DNA from: a virus
Direction: 5' to 3' (one strand)
Virus record (IMG/VR): IMGVR_UViG_3300045911_000426
Location: 1 to 32,785 of that record
Length of the DNA stretch: 32,785 bases
The notes beneath the pieces were generated by a model, which did no database searches, was not told the origin of the DNA, and saw nothing but the letters and a program-made list of their open reading frames with translations. This document shows, piece by piece, positions 486-30,887 of this stretch (positions are counted from its first letter, which is position 1; every line of letters starts with the position of its first letter). A program made the translations under genes and the position numbers.

Positions 486-819
486 TTCTTTTTCAGAAGA
501 AACAACAACTTCTATTTTTGATTTAACACTACATAGATATGATTATAATAATCATACTCTATATTTTTTATCTCATAGACAGTTTTACTTTGATCATGTT
601 AATTTACTAATTACTGGATTTACATCTAAGGAAATTATAAATGATTTTGTAGATGATGTTGATAGAGATGTAGATATGGAAAACTGTACCTTAGAAGAGA
701 TTCTAGAAAAAATAAATAATAGTGATTATACAATAAAAAAAACATCGGGTTTAACTTTAGAAGATAAATCTTACTTAAATCTGTATAAAGTTTTAAAAAT
801 TATTAAAGAAGAATTGTAA
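466..819 (+). CDS. Small unknown protein, weak member of the NELI C-terminal family
   Basis: Unrecognised protein of 117 aa. It overlaps the end of the CYTH gene by 20 nt, and its TAA shares a base with the ATG of the next gene, so it is probably translationally coupled on both sides. The middle is acidic (VDDVDRDVDMEN). The C-terminus, LYKVLKIIKEEL, has the hydrophobic spacing of the (I/L)xxIxNELI tail seen in the next two genes and in seven minus-strand genes, but lacks the final isoleucine. Membership therefore rests on position and tail only. No catalytic motif, signal peptide or membrane segment is visible. Confidence 0.65.
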   Translation: MKKVKSNSFSEETTTSIFDLTLHRYDYNNHTLYFLSHRQFYFDHVNLLITGFTSKEIINDFVDDVDRDVDMENCTLEEILEKINNSDYTIKKTSGLTLEDKSYLNLYKVLKIIKEEL

Positions 820-1172
820 TGTATAATATTAATGATATTATTGGACAAAAATTATTTTGTAAAAAAACCGGAATTACTTTAACTGTTGTTCCCATTACTC
901 ATAAATACAAAGAACATATTGCTTTAGAAATTCCTTTAAAAGAGCGTGATACTTTTTTAAAAGCATATCATAATTTCATTCATCCTGTCTCATATAACTA
1001 TAGAGAAAATTCATTACTTATAAAATCTGATCAATATGAAACAAAAGGATATCGTATAGAAAAAGGCAAATGTGTTTTAATGTTTACTTTCGATAATTTT
1101 AAAAAATATAACTTAATTTTTATGTCTTCTATTGAATATTTTACTTACTTAATATCAAAAGAATTAATTTAA
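819..1172 (+). CDS. Small unknown protein, NELI C-terminal family
   Basis: Protein of 117 aa starting on the last base of the preceding stop codon. The N-terminal half looks beta-rich (IGQKLFCKKTGITLTVV, a G-containing turn between strands) and the protein ends in a short helix, YFTYLISKELI, right at the stop. The same layout, with a conserved terminal (N/K)ELI, recurs in the gene at 1178 and in the minus-strand genes at 18769-21395 and 22873-23181. A VLMFTFDNF segment precedes the tail and matches the YxYYxxSLxDL segment of the paralogues. Function unknown; nothing suggests an enzyme. Confidence 0.75.
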   Translation: MYNINDIIGQKLFCKKTGITLTVVPITHKYKEHIALEIPLKERDTFLKAYHNFIHPVSYNYRENSLLIKSDQYETKGYRIEKGKCVLMFTFDNFKKYNLIFMSSIEYFTYLISKELI

Positions 1173-1177
1173 AAATT

Positions 1178-1531
1178 ATGATAGAAACAAAAAATATATC
1201 AAGTTATTTCGTTCTCAAACATAAAACCACTGGAGATAAAATTGTTTGCTATCAAATAGATGATAATTATAGAGAAGAGTATCAAATACCTCGTTCATGT
1301 AATTTTGTTGCTTTATTTACTCCCAATGATATACTCGCATGTACATATAAATTAATTACTTCAATAACACCCTGGCCTCTCTTTGATACAGGTAAAGAAC
1401 AAGAATTTAAAAAATTAGGTTTTACTAAAGGGTTTTACTTTGGATTTTCTGATGAAGAAATAAACGATTTCGAAATCATTTCTCATTCATTAGCTAATGT
1501 TATTGGGCAAATAGAAAATGAATTAGTTTAA
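1178..1531 (+). CDS. Small unknown protein, NELI C-terminal family
   Basis: Protein of 117 aa, six bases downstream of its paralogue and on the same strand. It starts with predicted strands (YFVLKHKTTGDKIVCYQI), has a central helix-poor region, then GFYFGFSDEE, matching the conserved aromatic-S-x-D/E segment of the family, and ends in LANVIGQIENELV. The last residue is V rather than I. The three genes at 466-1531 appear to be one operon branch of the family, about 17 kb from the larger minus-strand cluster. Function unknown. Confidence 0.75.
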   Translation: MIETKNISSYFVLKHKTTGDKIVCYQIDDNYREEYQIPRSCNFVALFTPNDILACTYKLITSITPWPLFDTGKEQEFKKLGFTKGFYFGFSDEEINDFEIISHSLANVIGQIENELV

Positions 1532-10631: not shown

Positions 10632-10675
10632 CCTAAAAGCTAAAGACTTTTAGGTTTTCTTTGAGAACTTTATAA
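10632..10675 (+). repeat. Recurrent hairpin element, copy 1
   Basis: Perfect 8-bp stem CCTAAAAG / CTTTTAGG with a 7-nt loop (10632-10654), followed by TTTTCTTTGAGAAC and an A/T tail. The same stem plus tail recurs at 15510 (+), 15885 (-), 16661 (-), 16961 (-) and 30395 (+), with degenerate versions at 22402 and 30124. The stem followed by a T-rich tract resembles a rho-independent terminator, and this copy lies about 70 bp beyond the last gene of the plus operon. Confidence 0.7.
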
Positions 10676-10705
10676 AATATTCACAAAATATTATATACCT
10701 TTTTT

Positions 10706-10808: not shown

Positions 10809-10968
10809 CTATTAGAAAACAAAAAAGGAAGTAAATGAATATTATTTACATTCATTCAAAGCCTGATAAACCGTTCTCTTCTTTTCATTGCAAGTGATAA
10901 TTAATTAAAAAAGAATTTCTATCAAGAAAGAGTAATTTCTTTATTTGTAAACTCAATTTTAAAACTCA

Positions 10969-11091
10969 TAAAATTTTATAGGTTTTATAATTGGAAATTT
11001 TTATAAACCTATAATTGTAAAATTTTATAGGTTTTATAATTGGAAATTTTTATAAACCTATAATTGTAAAATTTTATAGGTTTTATAATTA
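10969..11091 (+). repeat. 49-bp tandem repeat, 2.5 copies, built of 24-25 bp inverted half-units
   Basis: Units begin at 10969, 11018 and 11067 (partial). The first two are identical. Each contains TTATAGGTTTTATAATTG followed by TTTTTATAAACCTATAATTG; the TATAGGTTT and AAACCTATA parts are inverted relative to each other, so every unit can fold into a hairpin with a 10-bp stem. Each half-unit ends in TATAATTG, which includes a -10-like TATAAT. Candidates are replication-origin iterons, repressor operators or a promoter array. No gene starts immediately downstream on the plus strand. Confidence 0.75.
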
Positions 11092-11374
11092 GTTGAATAA
11101 AAGATATGAGAAAAAGTTGTTTATATAAACACATTCAAAAAAAACTCGGGGTGTGTTTATGTATAATGTAGTATATGCACAATGTAATAATAGTTTTTTT
11201 TTAATCAACAATGAATTTGTAAAATAGTTTTTCTTTGTTATTGTTAATGGTTATTATCGGTTGCTATAAATGACAATGTAAAAGAGTTATAAATATTAAT
11301 ATGAATTATTTTTGTATTTTTACATATAGTAAATTTGAGATTATTTTAAGGGGGGAGTAGATCAGTTATTTATT

Positions 11375-13944: not shown

Positions 13945-14025
13945 AAGGATTATTTTTTTTTGTATATAACTGGTAAATTAATTAGCCAATTTTTGAATTT
14001 AAAAACATTTTGGATAATAGTGGTT

Positions 14026-14092
14026 AAATTTATAGATCTTATAATTGAGAATTTTTATAAACCTATAATTGTAAAATTTTATAGGTTTTATT
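14026..14092 (-). repeat. Second locus of the iteron-like 24-25 bp repeats
   Basis: Nearly three half-units: one ending ATAATTG at 14047, one ending at 14071 and one up to 14092. They share 20-base stretches with the array at 10969 about 3 kb away. It lies between the gene ending at 14111 and the promoter-like site for the 13881 gene, where an operator would be expected. Confidence 0.7.
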
Positions 14093-14110
14093 AATAAAAT
14101 AGTGTTGATA

Positions 14111-15509: not shown

Positions 15510-15554
15510 CCTAAAAGCTAAAGACTTTTAGGTTTTCTTTGAGAACTATATAAA
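15510..15554 (+). repeat. Recurrent hairpin element, copy 2
   Basis: Perfect CCTAAAAG / CTTTTAGG stem (15510-15532) with a TTTTCTTTGAGAAC tail on the plus strand, in a region transcribed from the minus strand. The minus-strand mini-ORF at 15518-15634 ends inside it, and the promoter at 15467-15497 begins just beyond it. Confidence 0.7.
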
Positions 15555-15884: not shown

Positions 15885-15927
15885 TTTTCTAAAGAAAACT
15901 TAAAAGTCTTTAACTTTTAGATACTTC
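15885..15927 (-). repeat. Recurrent hairpin element, copy 3
   Basis: On the minus strand the element starts at the TGA of the 23-codon mini-ORF (15926-15928), reads AGTATCTAAAAGTTAAAGAC and continues into CTTTTAAGTTTTCTTT before the zinc-ribbon gene. The stem has one or two mismatches. The 5' part is nearly identical to the sequence after the stop codon at 22401. Confidence 0.6.
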
Positions 15928-16609: not shown

Positions 16610-16660
16610 TTTTAAAACTTTTTATATGTTTTTTTTGTCTTTATTTTATGTTTTGAATTT

Positions 16661-16705
16661 TATATAGTTCCCAAAGAAAACCTAAAAGTCTTTGGATTTT
16701 AAGAT
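16661..16705 (-). repeat. Recurrent hairpin element, copy 4
   Basis: On the minus strand it reads TTAAAATCCAAAGAC then TTTTAGGTTTTCTTTGGGAAC; the 5' arm has diverged, so the stem is imperfect. Its upstream flank (to about 16765) is a near copy of the flank of the element at 16961, so the two belong to a larger direct repeat. Confidence 0.6.
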
Positions 16706-16765
16706 AAATTTAGAAGTTAAATTTCTTTTTAAAAAAAAAATATAAGTAATTTTGTTATTATTTTA
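16671..16765 (-). repeat. Direct repeat, copy 1 of 2 (other copy 16980-17066)
   Basis: The two stretches share the hairpin element, the block AAATTTAGAAGTTAAATTTC, an A-run that differs in length, and TATAAGTAATTTTGTTATTA. They are about 310 bp apart and bracket the 16798-16938 module, as expected for a segmental tandem duplication followed by loss. Confidence 0.7.
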
Positions 16766-16797
16766 AAAGATACATATTTTATTATTATATTGGTTTT

Positions 16798-16938: not shown

Positions 16939-16960
16939 GAGTGATATAAGGGTTAAGAGT
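16916..16960 (-). pseudogene. Remnant of a NELI-family gene (last 14 codons)
   Basis: The minus strand reads TLNPYITQIQNELI then stop, matching the ends of the genes at 19703 (CITQIQNELI) and 20135 (YIIQIQNELI). An in-frame stop and then a hairpin element lie immediately upstream, so the rest of the gene has been deleted. Confidence 0.8.
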
Positions 16961-17004
16961 TTATATGGTTCTCAAAGAAAACCTAAAAGTCTTTAACTTT
17001 TAGG
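16961..17004 (-). repeat. Recurrent hairpin element, copy 5
   Basis: Perfect CCTAAAAG / CTTTTAGG stem (16982-17004), with CTTTGAGAACC following on the minus strand. It lies about 100 bp downstream of the LRR gene ending at 17106, where a terminator would be expected, and directly before the NELI remnant. Confidence 0.7.
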
Positions 17005-17105
17005 ATAAATTTAGAAGTTAAATTTCTTAAAAAAAAATATAAGTAATTTTGTTATTATTTTAACAAAATTATTTTGAATTAAGAGAATAACAAGGTAGTT
17101 GGTTA

Positions 17106-17750
17106 TTAAAAAGCAATTTTAAATTTCTTTCTATATTGATTTAATAATTCTTCATTTTTAGATAGAGGAGTATTGTCAAGATAAATTATATATCGAACTA
17201 TTAAATCATCGGGTAATTTTTCAATAAGAGTATAAGTTAAATCTAAATTTCCATCAACATATCTTAAATTATTTAAACTCTTTAAATTTTTACAGTTATA
17301 TAAATACAAACCTCCATTAACTTTAATTAAACTATCTGACAGTTTTTCAATAGAGGTGTTAGCCAAATATAAGGACTGCCCAATTTTTAAATCATTAGGC
17401 AATTCTTTAAAGTTTACAGAATCAGATAAATCTAAATAGCCTTTAACATATTTTAGATTATTTAAACTCTTTAAGTTTTTACACTCTGATAAGTCTAAGT
17501 TTCCTTTTACTTCAATTAAATCATCAGGTAACTTTTCTATAGGTGATCCATTTAAATCTAAATCTCCTTTGCTGCCATTTTTAATATATTCCTGAATTTG
17601 TTTATTAATAGCAATGAGATAGTTTTTCTCTCTTTCTTCAGGAGATCTTCTAGGTATTAATATATTATTATTATCTTCATCTTCTATTAATCTAACTTTT
17701 TTATTAGTTAACTTTTCTAATAATGTGATGTATTTATTTAGATTAGACAT
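17106..17750 (-). CDS. Leucine-rich-repeat protein with possible head-targeting N-terminus (copy 2)
   Basis: A 214-aa protein. Residues 1-25 read NLNKYITLLEKLTNKKVRLI followed by EDED, almost the same as in the adjacent LRR gene and similar to the ART-like protein at 9813. A linker with ILIPRRSPEEREKNY follows. From about residue 60 there are LRR units of 20-22 residues of the form G(D/Y)LDLSxCxNLKSLNNLKYV and IEKLPDDLIEVKG, ending in IIYLDNTPLSKNEELLNQYR. LRR solenoids bind proteins. The LIE/D sequence at 21-24 resembles the T4 prohead-protease site (LxE or IxE, cut after E). It is a tandem duplicate of the 17772 gene with fewer repeats. A host-directed effector is an inference. Confidence 0.75.
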   Translation of the reverse strand: MSNLNKYITLLEKLTNKKVRLIEDEDNNNILIPRRSPEEREKNYLIAINKQIQEYIKNGSKGDLDLNGSPIEKLPDDLIEVKGNLDLSECKNLKSLNNLKYVKGYLDLSDSVNFKELPNDLKIGQSLYLANTSIEKLSDSLIKVNGGLYLYNCKNLKSLNNLRYVDGNLDLTYTLIEKLPDDLIVRYIIYLDNTPLSKNEELLNQYRKKFKIAF

Positions 17751-17771
17751 TTGTACTTAAGGTTTAGTTTA

Positions 17772-18482
17772 TTAAACAATAATATCAAGTTTCTTTCTGT
17801 ATTGATTTAATAATTTTTCATTTTTAACTAAGGGTGTATTAACAAGATAAATTATACCTCTAATTATTAAATCATCAGGTAATCTTTCAATAAGAGTATT
17901 ACTTAGATATAAACACCCCTCAACATATCTTAAATTATTTAAATCTTTTAAGTTTTTACAATTAGTTAAATCTAAATCCCCGTATAGGTTAGTTAAACTA
18001 TCAGGTAATTTTTTAATAGAAGTATTACTTAAATATAGAGAACCTCCAACACTCAAACTATCAGGCAATTCTATTAAATTAATACAGTAAGATAAATCTA
18101 AATATCCATTAACATATTTTAAATTGTTTAAACTTATTAAGTTTTTACACTCTGATAAGTCTAAATCACCTTCAACATATTTTAAATTATTTAAACTTTT
18201 TAAGTTTTTACAATTAGCTAAGTTTAACCTACCATTAACTTCTATTAAATTATCAGGTAATGTCTCGATAGGAGTATTACTTAAATCTAAATCACCTTCA
18301 TTTCCATTTTTAATATATTCTTGGATTTTTTTATTAATAGCAATAATATAATTTTTTTGTCTTTCTTCAGGAGATCTTCTTGGTATTAATATATTATTAT
18401 CACTATTTTCTTCTTCAATTAATCTAACTTTTTTATTAGTTAGTTTTTCCAATAATGTAATATATTTGCTTAAGTTAGACAT
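17772..18482 (-). CDS. Leucine-rich-repeat protein with possible head-targeting N-terminus (copy 1)
   Basis: A 236-aa protein, paralogous over its whole length to the gene 21 bp downstream, with one or two more LRR units. N-terminus SNLSKYITLLEKLTNKKVRL is followed by IEEENSD. Repeats such as LIEVNGRLNLANCKNLKSL, YVEGDLDLSECKNLISL and YVNGYLDLSYCINLIEL alternate with LPDSL-containing units. There is no signal peptide or membrane segment. Copy number change by recombination between repeats is likely, since the units are also similar at DNA level. It heads the two-gene LRR operon, behind a 285-bp non-coding leader. Confidence 0.75.
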   Translation of the reverse strand: MSNLSKYITLLEKLTNKKVRLIEEENSDNNILIPRRSPEERQKNYIIAINKKIQEYIKNGNEGDLDLSNTPIETLPDNLIEVNGRLNLANCKNLKSLNNLKYVEGDLDLSECKNLISLNNLKYVNGYLDLSYCINLIELPDSLSVGGSLYLSNTSIKKLPDSLTNLYGDLDLTNCKNLKDLNNLRYVEGCLYLSNTLIERLPDDLIIRGIIYLVNTPLVKNEKLLNQYRKKLDIIV

Positions 18483-19118: not shown

Positions 19119-19258
19119 GTCAAATTAGCGTTTTGCAAAATAAAATTTGGCTAATTTAATAATTTATTGAATATTTGTATAAGAGGAGTACAAGTGTTTT
19201 TCTTATTTTGCCAAATATTATTTTGTTTTATTTAATTCATATTAATTCATTTTGTATT
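19119..19258 (-). repeat. Duplicated 140-bp intergenic module, copy 2
   Basis: Here the module covers the spacer between the NELI genes at 19237 and 18769 and the last codons of the former, showing its original setting. The inverted repeat arms (CAAAATAAAATTTGG and CCAAATATTATTTTG) match at 14 of 15 positions. Confidence 0.7.
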
Positions 19259-19677
19259 TCTTTTATTATATTACCCAAATATGATGTAAAATCAATTTTG
19301 TATATTTGTATTGGTCTTATGATTAATAAGTCAGTTAAACTAATAAAGCCATAATGAGTATATTTGGGGGAGTTAAATAATTCTGGATTAGTTATCATAG
19401 GATCTGATCCTATTAATTCTTTCAACAATTCTGTGCGCGAATTAAGTATCCTATTTTTAAGACTATCTTGTATATTTACAAAATGTAAAGGTAACCAGAG
19501 CTTAGGATCTATATTATTAGTAATTAAAAGTAAACAACTACCAGGAAATATTTTTTTTGGTGCCCCTACTATTATACATTCTTGTGAGAAGATATGAAAA
19601 GTCTTACCAACTAATTTGCTCAACGCACCATCAGTGTTCATTCGAATCAATTTTTCTATTTGTTCTTTTTGATCCAT
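19237..19677 (-). CDS. Small unknown protein, NELI C-terminal family
   Basis: A 146-aa protein. An N-terminal helix (EQIEKLIRMNTDGALSKLV) is followed by G-containing strands (GKTFHIFSQECIIVGAP), a middle section, then HYGFISLTDLL, which matches the family's YxYYxxSLxDL segment, and the tail LGNIIKEIQNELI. The plan helix, beta unit, aromatic-S-L-x-D, terminal helix is shared with the genes at 19703 and 20135. It is 25 bp downstream of the next family member. No enzymatic residues stand out. Confidence 0.75.
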   Translation of the reverse strand: MDQKEQIEKLIRMNTDGALSKLVGKTFHIFSQECIIVGAPKKIFPGSCLLLITNNIDPKLWLPLHFVNIQDSLKNRILNSRTELLKELIGSDPMITNPELFNSPKYTHYGFISLTDLLIIRPIQIYKIDFTSYLGNIIKEIQNELI

Positions 19678-19702
19678 ATCAACTTACTTATTAAGTTAAA
19701 TT

Positions 19703-20122
19703 TTAAATTAATTCATTTTGTATTTGAGTGATACATTGTCCAATAAGGTTAAGTGATATAACAATATCGTCATCGTTTAAATCATCCCAATCGGATAATA
19801 ACATATAACAATAGTATTTGTAATTTGGAAAGGCTAATAGATTAGGAAGACTTATTATAGTTTGGGGGTCTGATTGGAGATTGCGATTATGTATTGTAGC
19901 TTCAGGCGCATTAATTAAATCATTGCAGATAGGATGATAAGTTCCTAGACTAATATTATCAGAATAACGCTCTGTACTTATTGCTACTAAACATTGTTCG
20001 CTTATTGAATTTATCACACTTATTATGATATATTCTCCCCTTTTAGTTCGTATAGTAGCATTTAAGATTTGATGAGGATTTTTTTCACAAAGTTCTTTAA
20101 ATTTATTTATTGTTATATTCAT
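19703..20122 (-). CDS. Small unknown protein, NELI C-terminal family
   Basis: A 139-aa protein. It begins NITINKFKELCEKNPHQIL, then the strand region IRTKRGEYIIISVI, later YYCYMLLSDWDDLNDDDIV and the tail IGQCITQIQNELI. About half its residues match the next gene upstream (20135-20560) by eye, so the two are a fairly recent tandem duplication. Twelve bases separate them. Function unknown. Confidence 0.75.
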   Translation of the reverse strand: MNITINKFKELCEKNPHQILNATIRTKRGEYIIISVINSISEQCLVAISTERYSDNISLGTYHPICNDLINAPEATIHNRNLQSDPQTIISLPNLLAFPNYKYYCYMLLSDWDDLNDDDIVISLNLIGQCITQIQNELI

Positions 20123-20134
20123 AAAATTTAATAA

Positions 20135-20560
20135 TTAAATTAATTCATTTTGTATTTGAATAATATATTGTTGAATAGTATTAAGTGATATAATAATATC
20201 ATCATCATTTAAATTATTATTTAAGTTAGACAATGATATATAACAATAGTGTTTATAGTTTAAAAAGGTTGATAAACTAGGGAGAGCTATTATATTTCGA
20301 GAATTTAGTAAAGGATTGCGAGCGAGTATTGTATCTTTAGGCGCATTAATTAAATTATTGCAGATAGAATGATAGTTTTTTACATTAACACAATCGTAAT
20401 AACAATCTTTGGTTAGTGCTATTAAATATCGTTGTTCTCTTAAATTTACTATAACAGCTATTATAACATATTCTCCTTTTTTAGTTTGTATAATAGTGTT
20501 TAAGATTTTGCGAGGATTTCTTTCGTAAAGTTGTTTTAGTTCTTTTATTGTTATGTTCAT
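20135..20560 (-). CDS. Small unknown protein, NELI C-terminal family
   Basis: A 141-aa protein, the closest paralogue of the 19703 gene: NITIKELKQLYERNPRKIL, IQTKKGEYVIIAVI, HYCYISLSNL, LNDDDIIISLN, and the tail YIIQIQNELI. Conservation is strongest in the first 35 and last 45 residues; the middle has diverged, as if the variable part were under different selection. Nine bases from the next family member upstream. Confidence 0.75.
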   Translation of the reverse strand: MNITIKELKQLYERNPRKILNTIIQTKKGEYVIIAVIVNLREQRYLIALTKDCYYDCVNVKNYHSICNNLINAPKDTILARNPLLNSRNIIALPSLSTFLNYKHYCYISLSNLNNNLNDDDIIISLNTIQQYIIQIQNELI

Positions 20561-20568
20561 AAAATTAA

Positions 20569-21027
20569 TTAAATTAATTCGTTCACAATTTGATTAGATA
20601 TGACATTAATTTTAGGTGGATTAATCGTTAAAAGCCCAAGATAGTATGGTGTGGTTGATATTATATAATATTGATTATAATTTATTAATAACGATTCATT
20701 ATTAGTGAAGTTAACCTTTGAATTTTCAACAATAAATTCTTGGTTTACGAATTTGACATATTTTGCAAATTCTTTTTTATTTGTAAGTGTTTTTTTACTA
20801 AAAACATTAGGGATTATATGTAATGGATTTTCATTCTCTAATTGTTTTTTCTTCTCTTCGTTAAATTCATTACTACTATTAACAATTAATAATCTATAAT
20901 AGTTAGCACTAACTTTAACACAATAACCTGCAATTTTGCCATATCCTAATACTTCATGATAAACATCCCTGTCCAATATATTATCAGGATTTGTTTTTAA
21001 TATATTAATTAGCTCTTCTCTTGACAT
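20569..21027 (-). CDS. Small unknown protein, NELI C-terminal family
   Basis: A 152-aa protein. N-terminal SREELINILKTNPDNILDR aligns with the KNPxxIL start of the 19703 and 20135 proteins; GYGKIAGYCVKVSANYYRLL forms the beta unit. A lysine/glutamate-rich middle follows, then NQYYIISTTPYYLG and the tail INVISNQIVNELI. The longest member of the family. Function unknown. Confidence 0.75.
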   Translation of the reverse strand: MSREELINILKTNPDNILDRDVYHEVLGYGKIAGYCVKVSANYYRLLIVNSSNEFNEEKKKQLENENPLHIIPNVFSKKTLTNKKEFAKYVKFVNQEFIVENSKVNFTNNESLLINYNQYYIISTTPYYLGLLTINPPKINVISNQIVNELI

Positions 21028-21044
21028 TTTCTTTTGATATTAAA

Positions 21045-21395
21045 TTACATTAATTCGTTTTGTATAGTTTGAATAATACGATGTAATGTTGGGGATTGAT
21101 ATATAATTCTAAATTTAAACTCATTATTAAAATCTCCAACACTATAATAAGCATAATACTCGTAATTCTCTAAGTATGAACAAATTTGTTTTTCCGATTC
21201 TGGCATATCACTAACATTCCATTTAAAAAAACGATTAAGAGTATTCGACCCAATAATATAATAGTCCATATTATTGTAATTATTACAATGATCTCTAGGT
21301 AATATCCCCAGTATTCTACATTCAATTCCCTTTCTGTTTTTTATCCTATAACAGACAGCAGAATAAATTTCAATTATATCACCAACCTTTAACAT
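21045..21395 (-). CDS. Small unknown protein, NELI C-terminal family, first gene of the cluster
   Basis: A 116-aa protein lacking the N-terminal helix: it starts directly with strands (KVGDIIEIYSAVCYRIKNRK), continues CRILGILPRDHC, carries YEYYAYYSVGDF (the conserved aromatic-S-x-x-D segment) and ends RIIQTIQNELM. The final residue is M instead of I. It faces the divergent promoter region at 21396-21585 and so should be the first gene of the minus-strand transcript. Confidence 0.75.
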   Translation of the reverse strand: MLKVGDIIEIYSAVCYRIKNRKGIECRILGILPRDHCNNYNNMDYYIIGSNTLNRFFKWNVSDMPESEKQICSYLENYEYYAYYSVGDFNNEFKFRIIYQSPTLHRIIQTIQNELM

Positions 21396-21585
21396 AAAAT
21401 AATAATAGTTTAGAAAATTGGTTAAATATACAAAATAGCATATAGCTCATCTACTCAATTAAGTATAAGTAGGTTAGATATTTAGAAGGATAAATATAGG
21501 AATTTTTTTCGAGAAGCCCACAAGAATAGTTATGTAGAACATATATTTATTAACAAATATTGTTAGACAAATAAAATAAAAAACA
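21396..21585. promoter_or_regulatory. Divergent promoter region
   Basis: This 190-bp gap separates the start of the minus-strand family cluster from the plus-strand fibre gene, so both promoters should lie here. On the minus strand TTG, 18 nt, then TATTTTG is a possible promoter for the cluster. A CTACT / AGTAG hairpin lies near 21453-21474. No coding sequence is seen. Confidence 0.45.
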
Positions 21586-22401
21586 ATGAGTTTACTTAAT
21601 TGGGGTGGTTACCAGGTTACACAAACAACCATGTCTTTCCCCACTATAACTGAAATGTTTTCTTATTTAAGAAAAGTGCGAATAGATAAGAGTTTAGTAT
21701 TACCATCAGTTATAATAGTAGATGATAGTATATATACTTTTGATAATAATAAAGAAAGATATGTTAAACAGTCTTCAGAAAATCGAAAGGCATTTCTAGT
21801 TAACTCTCTACCGATTGAACAATCAGAGGAAATACAACAATTTCAAACCGGGAATGATATTCAAGAAGTTGAGGATTATATTGATGGTATTAGTGGTAAT
21901 AAAATACGTTTAACAATCAATACTCCTGTATCTTGGAGTGAACTAAATCTATGGGGAAATACATTAGCATATATTTACAGCAACTTTATAGGAATTATGA
22001 TTGAGAATGCTGGCTCCATTAGTGGTACGTATTATAGTTATAGTGATGGAGATAGAGGATATAATTATAACTTTCAAACAGCAAGTTATATTTATTATGA
22101 AACCATAGCGGGATTAACTGCGGAAGAATTTAATACTAATTTCACTGAAGAGTCTAATTTAATATTTTTAACTAGAGAACCTGGCAGATATGTTATTCAA
22201 CATAACCTTAATACATTACAACCTATTGTAAGGGTTTTTGATTCAGGCTCACGTGATGATGAAAGTTTAGAGTATTATGCTCCTGGTACAATGACACCTG
22301 GATTTATAGTAGAAAATAATAATACGATAACTATTTCTACAAATAGTATTTCTAACAATGATAGTAATAGCAGATATATAGCGATAATTGTAGAAAAGTG
22401 A
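21586..22401 (+). CDS. Probable tail fibre or virion tip protein
   Basis: A 271-aa protein. The N-terminus SLLNWGGYQVTQTTMSFPTI is followed by strands and a helix. The C-terminal part from about residue 196 reads PGRYVIQHNLNTLQPIVRVF, later GFIVENNNTITISTN and RYIAIIVEK. The HNLNT...PxVxVxD...NNTITI layout is typical of the final beta domain of phage tail fibre proteins. The start of the minus-strand protein at 22876 (EGRFLIQHNLLVRVIVND) looks like the same domain. Isolated between two minus-strand groups, with its own promoter region upstream and a bidirectional terminator downstream. Confidence 0.6.
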   Translation: MSLLNWGGYQVTQTTMSFPTITEMFSYLRKVRIDKSLVLPSVIIVDDSIYTFDNNKERYVKQSSENRKAFLVNSLPIEQSEEIQQFQTGNDIQEVEDYIDGISGNKIRLTINTPVSWSELNLWGNTLAYIYSNFIGIMIENAGSISGTYYSYSDGDRGYNYNFQTASYIYYETIAGLTAEEFNTNFTEESNLIFLTREPGRYVIQHNLNTLQPIVRVFDSGSRDDESLEYYAPGTMTPGFIVENNNTITISTNSISNNDSNSRYIAIIVEK

Positions 22402-22430
22402 AGTATCTAAAAGTTAAAGGGTTTTTAAAT
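22402..22430 (+). repeat. Recurrent hairpin element, degenerate copy
   Basis: Directly after the TGA: AGTATCTAAAAGTTAAAGGG then TTTTTAAAT. The 5' arm and loop match the minus-strand copy at 15885; the 3' arm has decayed so only about 5 bp can pair. Confidence 0.5.
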
Positions 22431-22439
22431 ATTTCACAA

Positions 22440-22475
22440 AAAAAAAGAGAGATAGCATGTCTCTCTTTTTTTTAT
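22440..22475. terminator. Bidirectional rho-independent terminator
   Basis: Stem AGAGAGA (22446-22452) with TCTCTCT (22460-22466), extended by an A-run upstream and a T-run downstream, loop TAGCATG. It sits between the plus-strand fibre gene and the convergent minus-strand genes and can act in both directions. Confidence 0.85.
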
Positions 22476-22478
22476 CAC

Positions 22479-22602
22479 TCATATAATTTCATCTTCAAAC
22501 AGTTGTTGTAAACTCAGAGGTAAGCTTCTAGAGTTGTTTTTAGTGAGATTATAATAATATTCTTGACAATACATTTCTTCTTCTTCAGTTAAAAAACAAA
22601 GT
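22479..22602 (-). pseudogene. Out-of-frame C-terminal extension of the 22589 gene
   Basis: After the stop of the 22589 gene the minus-strand -1 frame reads FLTEEEEMYCQEYYYNLTKN, then NSRSLPLSLQQLFEDEII and a TGA at 22479-22481, just before the terminator. Adding one T to the T6 run (22591-22596 on the plus strand as A6) restores a continuous protein of about 135 aa ending right at the terminator. A separate 31-aa peptide from an internal ATG at 22574 is the alternative. Confidence 0.55.
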
Positions 22603-22876
22603 CTTTCACACTATCAAACATCATGCCCCATCCCCAATAATATATATTATTATCATCTTGATCGTCTAATTTAATTACCCATTTGTTTTTGTTAAAGTTA
22701 GAACCTTTAGCTCCATAATCTAAAGATGTATCAAGATTATATTTTTTTACGATATCATCTGGAGGTAATGGTAAAATTTGCACAGCATTAAGGGTTGCGT
22801 CATTTACAATAACTCTAACTAATAGATTGTGTTGAATAAGAAATCTGCCTTCGTAAAAACTAGCTATGTTTATCAT
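22589..22876 (-). CDS. Unknown protein with fibre-tip-like start, probably frameshifted
   Basis: A 95-aa frame. Residues 1-25 (INIASFYEGRFLIQHNLLVR) resemble the C-terminal domain of the adjacent plus-strand fibre protein (PGRYVIQHNL...IVRV). Then come LPLPPDDIVKKYNLD and NKWVIKLDDQDDNNIYYWGW. The frame stops after DSVKDFVF in a T6 run, and coding-like sequence continues in another frame to 22479, so the intact protein was probably longer. Its start overlaps the end of the 22873 gene by 4 nt (coupled). A gene derived from a fibre tip on the opposite strand is unusual. Confidence 0.6.
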   Translation of the reverse strand: MINIASFYEGRFLIQHNLLVRVIVNDATLNAVQILPLPPDDIVKKYNLDTSLDYGAKGSNFNKNKWVIKLDDQDDNNIYYWGWGMMFDSVKDFVF

Positions 22877-23181
22877 ATTAATTCGTTTTGTATTAGTGAA
22901 ATATATTTATCAAGCGTAGAAGGATTTATAATGTATTCTCCAGGATGTAAGTATAATTTACGACCATAATCTTTCAATATTGTATCTTTAAAGACATTTT
23001 CTATTATTATTCCAAATTTTTCTGATTTATCGGACGAAAACACACTAAGTATTTTAGCACGAAAATTTAGTTTATTTTTTTCTTTTAATTTATAAACAAA
23101 ATGTTTTTCCCATTTTGTGTTTGACTTTAAACATAAATCAGTTATTTGTATGTTATAAGTACAATTTAAAATTATATTCAT
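22873..23181 (-). CDS. Small unknown protein, NELI C-terminal family
   Basis: A 102-aa protein with a strand-rich N-terminus (NIILNCTYNIQITDLCLKSN), KLNFRAKILSVFSSDK, HPGEYIINPSTLD and the tail KYISLIQNELI. It is separated from the main cluster by the fibre gene but has the same strand and the same tail. It overlaps the next gene by 4 nt. Function unknown. Confidence 0.75.
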   Translation of the reverse strand: MNIILNCTYNIQITDLCLKSNTKWEKHFVYKLKEKNKLNFRAKILSVFSSDKSEKFGIIIENVFKDTILKDYGRKLYLHPGEYIINPSTLDKYISLIQNELI

Positions 23182-29742: not shown

Positions 29743-30123
29743 ATGCCTATTCCTGCTAAGCCTAAAATAAGAAAAAACTGTGCAAATTGCGGAAAAGAAT
29801 TTTTCGTTAGGCCTTGTAAACATTTTAAATATAAGGCAAAGTTTTGCTCAAATAGATGTAAATGGGATTATAAAAAGAAAATCCCATCAAAAAGAAGAAC
29901 ACCAAGAGAGAAAATAATATTATGTACATGCAGTAATGTTTTTTGTAAAAAACAATTTTATTTAAAACCTTATCAATTAAATGTACGTTTGCGAAAAAGT
30001 CCTAATATATTTTGCTCACATAAATGTTTTTTATATTTCAGGACAAAAAAATATCAATTAGATATTGAAAGATTAAGACAAGTACAACAAATAAAAGAAC
30101 AAAGACGTATTTGGAGATTGTGA
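29743..30123 (+). CDS. Double zinc-finger protein
   Basis: A 126-aa basic protein with two similar Cys modules. The first is NCANCGKEF...FCSNRC (C13, C16, C35, C39); the second is CTCSNVFCKKQF...FCSHKC (C61/C63, C68, C91, C95). The pattern CxxC-x(n)-FCSxxC resembles MYM/TRASH-type or HNH-associated zinc fingers that bind nucleic acid. No nuclease residues are seen. It stands 55 bp after the start of the opposite-strand gene and just ahead of the hairpin array. A DNA- or RNA-binding regulator is plausible but not shown. Confidence 0.7.
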   Translation: MPIPAKPKIRKNCANCGKEFFVRPCKHFKYKAKFCSNRCKWDYKKKIPSKRRTPREKIILCTCSNVFCKKQFYLKPYQLNVRLRKSPNIFCSHKCFLYFRTKKYQLDIERLRQVQQIKEQRRIWRL

Positions 30124-30303
30124 ACTACCTAAAATTTAAAAAATTATAGGCTTCCTGCAAAATTTAATTTGCAATACATTAGTGCTTATTACTAATGGCT
30201 CGTTCACAGAAGCAAGTTGGTTGTATTGATAATAACTTATCAATAACTAAACCAGTATAACAATTACAATATTGTAATTCATATTCTATTTACCTCGAAT
30301 ATG
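30124..30303 (+). ncRNA. Tandem hairpin array (candidate structured RNA or origin)
   Basis: Six hairpin-forming inverted repeats stand in a row. Arms: CCTAAAATT / AATTATAGG (30128-30150, one mismatch, a relic of the recurrent element); TGCAAA / TTTGCA (30156-30173); CATTAGT / ACTAATG (30177-30197); TATTGATAA / TTATCAATA (30224-30245, 4-nt loop); the perfect 18-bp palindrome AATTACAAT-ATTGTAATT (30262-30279); CATATTC / GAATATG (30280-30303). No open frame covers it. Candidates: a structured non-coding RNA, a replication origin ahead of the recombination genes, or an operator series. No tRNA could be folded. Confidence 0.5.
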
Positions 30304-30394
30304 GAAGGTTTTACATATATAAAAATAATATAATTTTAAAACAATAACTAAATTATTTATACTTTTTTTTTAAAAAAATATACCCAAATTTATT

Positions 30395-30437
30395 CTAAAA
30401 GCTAAAGATTTTTAGGTTTTCTTTGAGAGCTTTATAA
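30395..30437 (+). repeat. Recurrent hairpin element, copy 6, abutting a start codon
   Basis: CTAAAAG / TTTTTAG stem with the usual 7-nt loop (30395-30416) and the tail TTTTCTTTGAGAGCTTTATAA running directly into the ATG at 30438. Because the tail touches the start codon, a pure terminator role does not explain this copy; it would lie in the leader mRNA. Confidence 0.65.
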
Positions 30438-30887
30438 ATGAGTATTATTAAACAACCACAAAGATATTTGGCGTTAGATTTAAAAGAAGGATCTAATGCT
30501 GTAGTACATTTTCTACCTATGAAAAAAAAACTTATAGGAATTCAATTAGAATTAGATCCTAAATTAAACATTTTAAACCCTAAAATAAGTTTAGAAAACA
30601 TTGGGGTTACCGAGCGCAAAAAAGTTGAATTATTTGTAGAAAAGATAATTGATAAAGTGATTACAAAAGGTAATATATACACTTTATATAGTTATTTATT
30701 CTTATATAAACGCGGCAAATTTTACTTATTATCTGTTAGTTATAACAATTACTCTTTAGCATATTCTACCGTGGTGGAAATTGCTAAAGAATTAGGATTA
30801 AATTATCTTTTACCACAATGGAAGGGTATTTACACTAAACAAAAACTATTCTCTTTTATAGAAGATATTTTTGTACAAAAATTATAG
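30438..30887 (+). CDS. Unknown protein upstream of the ssDNA-binding protein
   Basis: A 149-aa protein with strands LALDLKEGSNAVVHFLP and IGIQLELDPKLNILN, a helix ERKKVELFVEKIIDKVI, then KFYLLSVSYNNYSL and a C-terminal helix pair ending SFIEDIFVQKL. Its start directly follows a hairpin element. Position ahead of the gp32-like and recombinase genes suggests a replication or recombination accessory role, but no family is recognised. Confidence 0.6.
   Translation: MSIIKQPQRYLALDLKEGSNAVVHFLPMKKKLIGIQLELDPKLNILNPKISLENIGVTERKKVELFVEKIIDKVITKGNIYTLYSYLFLYKRGKFYLLSVSYNNYSLAYSTVVEIAKELGLNYLLPQWKGIYTKQKLFSFIEDIFVQKL

Follow-up and report, generated by a model that had tools for sequence, protein, structure and literature searches.

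A hairpin-rich intergenic stretch and its surroundings

The window analysed here, i.e. the whole stretch of 32,785 nucleotides of the viral record IMGVR_UViG_3300045911_000426, carries between 30124 and 30303 a row of inverted repeats reported in a preliminary description as consecutive hairpins. A stem search of the window found these hairpins in place, including a perfect 18-bp palindrome (AATTACAATATTGTAATT, 30262-30279) and a 9-bp stem with a 4-nt loop (30224-30245). The stretch accommodates five non-overlapping perfect stems of at least 6 bp, and both this number and the predicted folding energy (z = -4.24 on the plus strand and -3.61 on the minus strand) withstood the shuffled-sequence control proposed at the time, being reached by 1 of 1000 dinucleotide shuffles and by none of 200 shuffles, respectively. 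The claim that the stretch is unlike the other intergenic regions does not strictly hold: a tandem-repeat region at 10901-11160 holds six to seven such stems, and hairpin density alone is therefore not unique to 30124-30303. A 49-bp repeat (approximate length; AAAATTTTATAGGTTTTATAATTGGAAATTTTTATAAACCTATAATTG), tandem as well as dispersed, at 10969-11090 and 14017-14095 exceeds this stretch in hairpin density.

No tRNA or tmRNA was detected in the region by ARAGORN and no Rfam family matched it at gathering level. A similarity search of annotated phages with about 1.2 kb around the region gave nothing, and the flanking genes had no usable relatives among these phages. The functional unit is larger than the stretch described, extending over 30120-30433, with the minus strand as its reading direction. 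As had been stated, the stretch is non-coding for the most part, with the exception of a relic of a TnpB C-terminus at 30142-30243 on the minus strand (68% identity, E = 2e-9), the readable part of which corresponds to 34 residues (372-405) of the TnpB encoded by the related contig L012. This relic is the sole coding trace inside 30124-30433, where no ORF of at least 60 aa was found. We consider it very likely that 30120-30433 is a complete tnpB-less IS200/IS605 element of the PATE/MITE type residing in a T4-like phage, apparently the product of an internal deletion in a TnpB-encoding element. Its parts are listed below in minus-strand order, each with the observation on which the assignment rests.

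30120..30433, minus: very likely a complete miniature IS200/IS605-type element (PATE) of 314 bp without protein gene; dispersed repeat with common boundaries in contigs L013, L012, L015 and L016
30434..30438, minus: TTTAT target or TAM-like motif adjoining the left end (ATAAA on the plus strand); precedes the left end in every left-end copy listed
30395..30433, minus: left end (LE), with AAAGCTCTCAAAGAAAAC before a hairpin with loop TCTTTAG (hairpin proper, 30395-30416); architecture common to all LE copies
30304..30394, minus: AT-rich linker from left end to scaffold, presumed to be a promoter; scaffold-proximal part (to about 30346) present in copies without adjacent left end
30120..30300, minus: predicted TnpB wRNA/reRNA scaffold of about 180 nt; covariance model R1 from the tnpB ends of six other phages
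30280..30303, minus: 5'-most scaffold hairpin (CATATTC...GAATATG); minus-strand fold, conserved in 5 of 5 aligned tnpB-less copies
30262..30279, minus: 18-bp palindrome or 5' hairpin; re-formed from other sequences in L013, L015 and L012
30224..30245, minus: middle stem; sequence comparison with intact tnpB
30202..30207, minus: closing stem P0, 5' arm GTGAAC; pairs with GTTCAC
30177..30197, minus: hairpin H1 (CATTAGT...ACTAATG); compensatory changes in relatives, invariant stem and variable loop in tnpB-less copies
30156..30173, minus: hairpin H2 (TGCAAA...TTTGCA); covariation in relatives and comparison of tnpB-less copies
30128..30150, minus: right-end (RE) hairpin H3, CCTATAAT-TTTTTAA-ATTTTAGG; in other phages, 7 of the 8 stem pairs covary
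30120..30125, minus: closing stem P0, 3' arm GTTCAC, the last bases of the element; pairs with GTGAAC
30100..30119, minus: flank in guide position, AATCTCCAAATACGTCTTTG; directly 3' of the scaffold

On the minus strand, TTTAT is thus followed by the left-end hairpin, the scaffold, the right-end hairpin, GTTCAC and the flank in guide position, the 3' domain reading GTGAAC, H1, H2, GGAAG, H3, TA and GTTCAC before this flank. The loop TCTTTAG is common to the LE and RE hairpins of most copies, whereas the window copy has TTTTTAA in the RE loop and one mismatch in the RE stem; its RE loop is partly decayed. The middle stem (TTGATAG...CTATCAA) encloses a longer coding loop in intact tnpB; compared with the L012 gene, the tnpB-less copies have lost the coding segment inside this stem and retained the stem itself, with an outer pair that is G-C in the window and L016 and A-T in the others. 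An H-type pseudoknot or leader formed by the LE hairpin and TTTTCTTTGAG was considered and rejected, this structure being the transposon left end.

Copies, ends and insertion sites

A search with 30120-30440 recovered partial copies inside the window, at 16960-17075 and 16659-16790 (both minus) and at 10633-10676 and 15511-15554, as well as fuller copies in unrelated gene contexts of IMG/VR contigs from related samples (L013 966-1279, L012 4411-4633 and L015 8922-9142). The copy at L016 10099-10420 occupies the same locus as that of the window, further copies are found in L102 and L103, and one additional copy, in L012, forms the 3' end of an intact tnpB gene when read as its reverse complement. 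Two of the fuller copies, L012 4411-4633 and L015 8922-9142, share the linker up to about 30346 and have no adjacent left end. The contigs carrying copies, fragments of at most about 42 kb, can be assigned to T4-like phage from their markers, a gp32-like single-strand-binding protein and a gp23-like capsid protein related, among others, to that of Flavobacterium phage immuto. Their occurrence in related samples suggests that sister phages may co-infect.

Besides these copies, we observed terminal-only micro-elements of about 50 nt at 10633-10680 (minus), 15511-15554 (minus) and 15891-15921 (plus) of the window and at L015 8492-8540 (plus). Each consists of a single LE/RE-like hairpin with loop TCTTTAG/A and starts as a left end after TTTAT; a right-end TTCAC or TTCAT is present in three of the four and absent from 15511-15554. 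A second subfamily of PATEs, alike in its ends but with a different TnpB C-terminal relic (FTHGRWGRAWGDIFNKRIYEPRSLKAFSF*), occurs at L012 4740-4962 and 9604-9825, L015 2512-2732 and 8707-8932 and L102 5583-5805, some of its copies directly abutting a copy of the first family. Clusters of phage tRNA-like genes (L012 4300-5000 and 7100-7730) serve as PATE landing sites, and the guide of the L012 4633 copy runs into the start of a tRNA-like gene. The PATE reading accounts for otherwise puzzling repeats across this genome. Among repeated coding sequences, the window contains two tandem paralogous leucine-rich-repeat-like ORFs (17106-18482, minus) and a family of many small ORFs (about 100-150 aa) ending approximately in I(Q/N)NEL(I/V/M) at 19237-23181 (minus) and 819-1531 (plus), which is also present at 3-8 kb of L015; L015 and L102 encode a 630-aa protein made of repeats of about 23 residues (FKDKVDWxxIS...QKLSE).

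The Y1 transposase TnpA recognises subterminal hairpins on single-stranded DNA. Such hairpins lie at both ends of the element (LE 30395-30416, RE 30128-30150), and their recognition by TnpA is predicted. No tnpA gene (Y1_Tnp) was found in the fragments of this phage group; Y1_Tnp with matching ends is present in two related phage contigs. L048, another T4-like phage contig, carries a complete IS605 that encodes both a Y1 TnpA of 137 aa and a canonical TnpB; its ends match those seen here, with AAAGAAAA[hairpin]ATGAATTTG as LE and [hairpin]TAGTTCA as RE. TTTAT directly precedes every left end listed, in several phages, once an entry for L032 is discounted as a spurious match to the RE of that contig.

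When the flanks of 30120-30433 are joined, the junction reads TGGAGATTA-TAA-ATG, i.e. ...TGG AGA TTA TAA followed by the ATG of ORF 30438, the upstream stop directly abutting the downstream start. The last residues of the upstream ORF (R-L-stop) are the same whether or not the element is present, so that its insertion separated two abutting genes without harm. Among the phage contigs, the guide flank 30100-30119 has an exact match only at the same occupied site in sister contigs. A strictly unoccupied allele of this site was not found, the 17 exact 17-mer loci in viral contigs all lying in unrelated contexts. The sister contig L103 lacks the elements of L015 9142-8700, and its unoccupied site, ATTTAC followed by TAGTAACACTAGGTTATTTA, matches the guide of the L015 copy at 20 of 20 positions with TTTAC adjoining, albeit with a right-hand junction that is not perfectly clean. 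The site of the terminal-only copy at L015 8522 is filled in L015 but empty in L103; the junction reads TTTAT in the former and TTTGT in the latter, and no target duplication is seen. L102 carries a 5'-truncated tnpB-less scaffold where L015 (about 6847) has none; the surroundings also differ, and this pair was rejected as a clean excision site. An indel of 1.1 kb between the sisters L016 and L010, an ORF insertion inside an intein-like region (L016 3654-4799, absent at about 9380 of L010), was rejected as a transposon since it looks like an insertion of the homing-endonuclease type, and is probably a homing endonuclease.

A constrained RNA scaffold and a viral TnpB clade

The ORF whose 3' end is repeated in L012 (8366-9586) was identified as TnpB by three Pfam matches above cut-off (OrfB_IS605, 7e-11; TNB, 7e-8; HTH_OrfB, 4e-7) and by a PDB sequence search. 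The clade to which it belongs comprises 20 loci in viral contigs including the query, one of them a distant 25% match, and pattern-based scans of 84,980 species genomes recovered no cellular member. Across 14 aligned members, the RuvC aspartates D188 and D363/D365 never vary, and neither does E329, which lies six residues before a degenerate zinc-finger position; glycine takes the place of the canonical RuvC-II glutamate, and the zinc-ribbon cysteines are lost. Fanzors and some TnpBs are known to have an alternative RuvC2 glutamate located six residues ahead of the zinc-finger motif (PMC10711439). E329 fits this arrangement, and nuclease activity of the clade is thus plausible. The contig of the window and those of the same strain, all fragments, contain no tnpB gene. 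Among TnpB loci L028-L046, some (L034, L035 and L042) have lost the RE transposon hairpin and kept the wRNA, suggesting a non-mobile, homing-type use.

TnpB relatives from other viral contigs, with 48-59% identity, retain the same scaffold architecture with changed sequences. A nearly gap-free alignment of six phages, made exclusively from the tnpB 3' ends of phages other than that of the window, displays changes on both sides at 12 of 29 pairs, with 96.6% of cells paired; none of 500 shuffles reached the observed values, and slid controls paired at 36-47%. The covariance model built from this alignment (R1) matches the window at 30120-30219 on the minus strand with 72 bits (E = 1.5e-18). The match ends exactly at 30120, the boundary of the element, with the guide flank directly beyond, and the same model also detects the other tnpB-less copies. 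A joint MAFFT alignment displaced H1 by one codon, and the two scaffold groups were therefore aligned separately and linked by the covariance model. The closing stem illustrates the changes, GTGAAC/GTTCAC of the window being replaced in relatives by ATGAAC/GTTCAT, ATGACA/TGTCAT, ATGAGC/GCTCAT and CTGACA/TGTCAG. In a larger set of up to 19 hand-aligned sequences, supportive only as its helices were chosen by hand, 113 of 114 cells were paired in P0, 114 of 114 in H1, 96 of 96 in H2 and 102 of 104 in H3.

Covariation within five tnpB-less copies alone is weak because their stems hardly vary, and we compared instead the variability of paired and unpaired positions. Across six tnpB-less copies, none of the 38 paired positions of P0, H1 and H2 varies, as against 10 of 23 unpaired ones (Fisher p = 1.3e-5); with the terminal hairpin included, the values are 4 of 54 and 14 of 34 (p = 2e-4). 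These copies are few and related, and the stems were partly defined from them, so that the comparison, although good evidence that in tnpB-less copies the RNA matters and not the DNA ends only, is not conclusive. From homology and from the structure shared with the tnpB 3' end plus RE, we identify 30120-30300 as the predicted TnpB wRNA scaffold.

Of the readings offered in the preliminary description, that of a structured RNA thus proved right in kind, the covariance search suggested there having revealed pairing kept with changed sequences in related phages and a match of the window to their model. A replication origin, an operator series or a decayed tRNA-like array, for which dense palindromes in an AT-rich intergenic stretch could speak, appears extremely improbable: no tRNA or Rfam family is detected, the relatives are tnpB 3' ends, and the same sequence recurs with identical anatomy at several unrelated loci as a dispersed polymorphic insertion.

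Possible homing between phages and relation to known systems

TnpB uses an RNA derived from the right end with a guide taken from the flank (PMC8612924, PMC10278001), and a TnpB gene drive of IS200/605 elements by cutting of unoccupied copies has been shown experimentally in plasmid populations (PMC11870625). By extension, the protein-less element, which keeps the two subterminal hairpins and the full minus-strand wRNA scaffold, would be moved by TnpA acting in trans. The sequence just beyond the right end would act as guide, such that the RNA would be addressed to its own insertion site in the unoccupied state, adjacent to a TTTAT-type motif. TnpB supplied from elsewhere in the phage group (L012 8366-9586) could load the RNA of the window and other tnpB-less wRNAs and cut co-infecting phage genomes without the insertion, into which recombination would then copy the element, one nuclease driving several dispersed small elements. 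For the whole chain, from transcription of the tnpB-less RNA through TnpB loading in trans and sister-phage cleavage to homing, we see roughly an even chance. Slightly below that we place the broader proposal that one TnpB of a clade known only from viral contigs, programmed in trans by several mobile protein-less wRNA genes, constitutes a multi-guide homing drive between phages, cutting rival sister genomes at several loci and converting them by recombination.

The main rival supposes that TnpA alone mobilises an inert tnpB-less element, of which the wRNA scaffold is a passenger. Because the wRNA overlaps the right end, every derivative that has lost tnpB by deletion retains the scaffold automatically, and Haloquadratum indeed has PATEs with C-terminal tnpB remnants next to 52-bp terminal-only versions (PMC3119063), the latter having counterparts here (window 10646 and 15907, L015 8522). 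However, stems distinct from the TnpA hairpin (P0, H1 and H2) show no change in six tnpB-less copies whose loops do vary, and some copies, such as L012 4411-4633, preserve scaffold and upstream region without an adjacent left end; we regard a passenger scaffold as a serious possibility, albeit one less likely than not. Far less probable is a domesticated TldR-like guide RNA with which TnpB, or a dead relative, would repress DNA or the two flanking genes without cutting. Phage-encoded TldR repressors exist (PMC13418256) and the canonical RuvC-II glutamate is missing in the whole clade, but the relocated glutamate and all the aspartates are invariant, the insertion site itself supplies the guide, for which the phage contigs hold no other exact target, and the copies are polymorphic between sister phages.

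On the homing interpretation, stray guide RNAs could direct a single phage nuclease to several sites. With TnpB regarded as the ancestor of Cas12, the question arises how a nuclease with a guide in cis came to be served by many separate ones. One TnpB combined in a phage with several structure-conserved tnpB-less guide elements at polymorphic sites would represent a natural midway stage on this path, and would open RNA-guided homing between phages to direct tests. PATEs, their terminal-only forms and TnpB gene drive have been described before; the open-access literature searched yielded no case of a phage in which several tnpB-less TnpB guide RNAs under structural constraint are paired with a TnpB clade recovered only from viral contigs. 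Altae-Tran et al. are said to have described, in 2021, trans-acting stand-alone wRNAs of IscB in Ktedonobacter, which like those presented here lie without an adjacent nuclease gene; there the nuclease is the Cas9-like IscB, whereas here it is the Cas12-like TnpB, in phages.

The PATEs of Haloquadratum walsbyi (PMC3119063) share with the present elements the lack of inverted terminal repeats and of target duplication, the IS605-type subterminal palindromes, the internal deletion derivatives, the occasional C-terminal tnpB remnant and the terminal-only forms of about 50 bp, our micro-elements resembling the 52-bp forms. They reside in an archaeal chromosome, whereas those described here are found in a T4-like phage, where the remnant is a predicted structure-constrained wRNA scaffold present at several loci with different guides. 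ISDra2-type TnpB-wRNA systems (PMC8612924, PMC10278001) likewise derive their RNA from the tnpB 3' end and the right end, with a guide from the flank and a TAM at the left end. In contrast to these, the RNA considered here occurs without tnpB in cis, and the related TnpB lacks the zinc-ribbon cysteines, has the alternative glutamate and was found here only in viral contigs. With the plasmid TnpB gene drive (PMC11870625), finally, the proposed system would share a self-derived guide targeting copies without the insertion, and would differ in operating between phage genomes, as deduced from sequence, and in involving several protein-less guide elements per nuclease.
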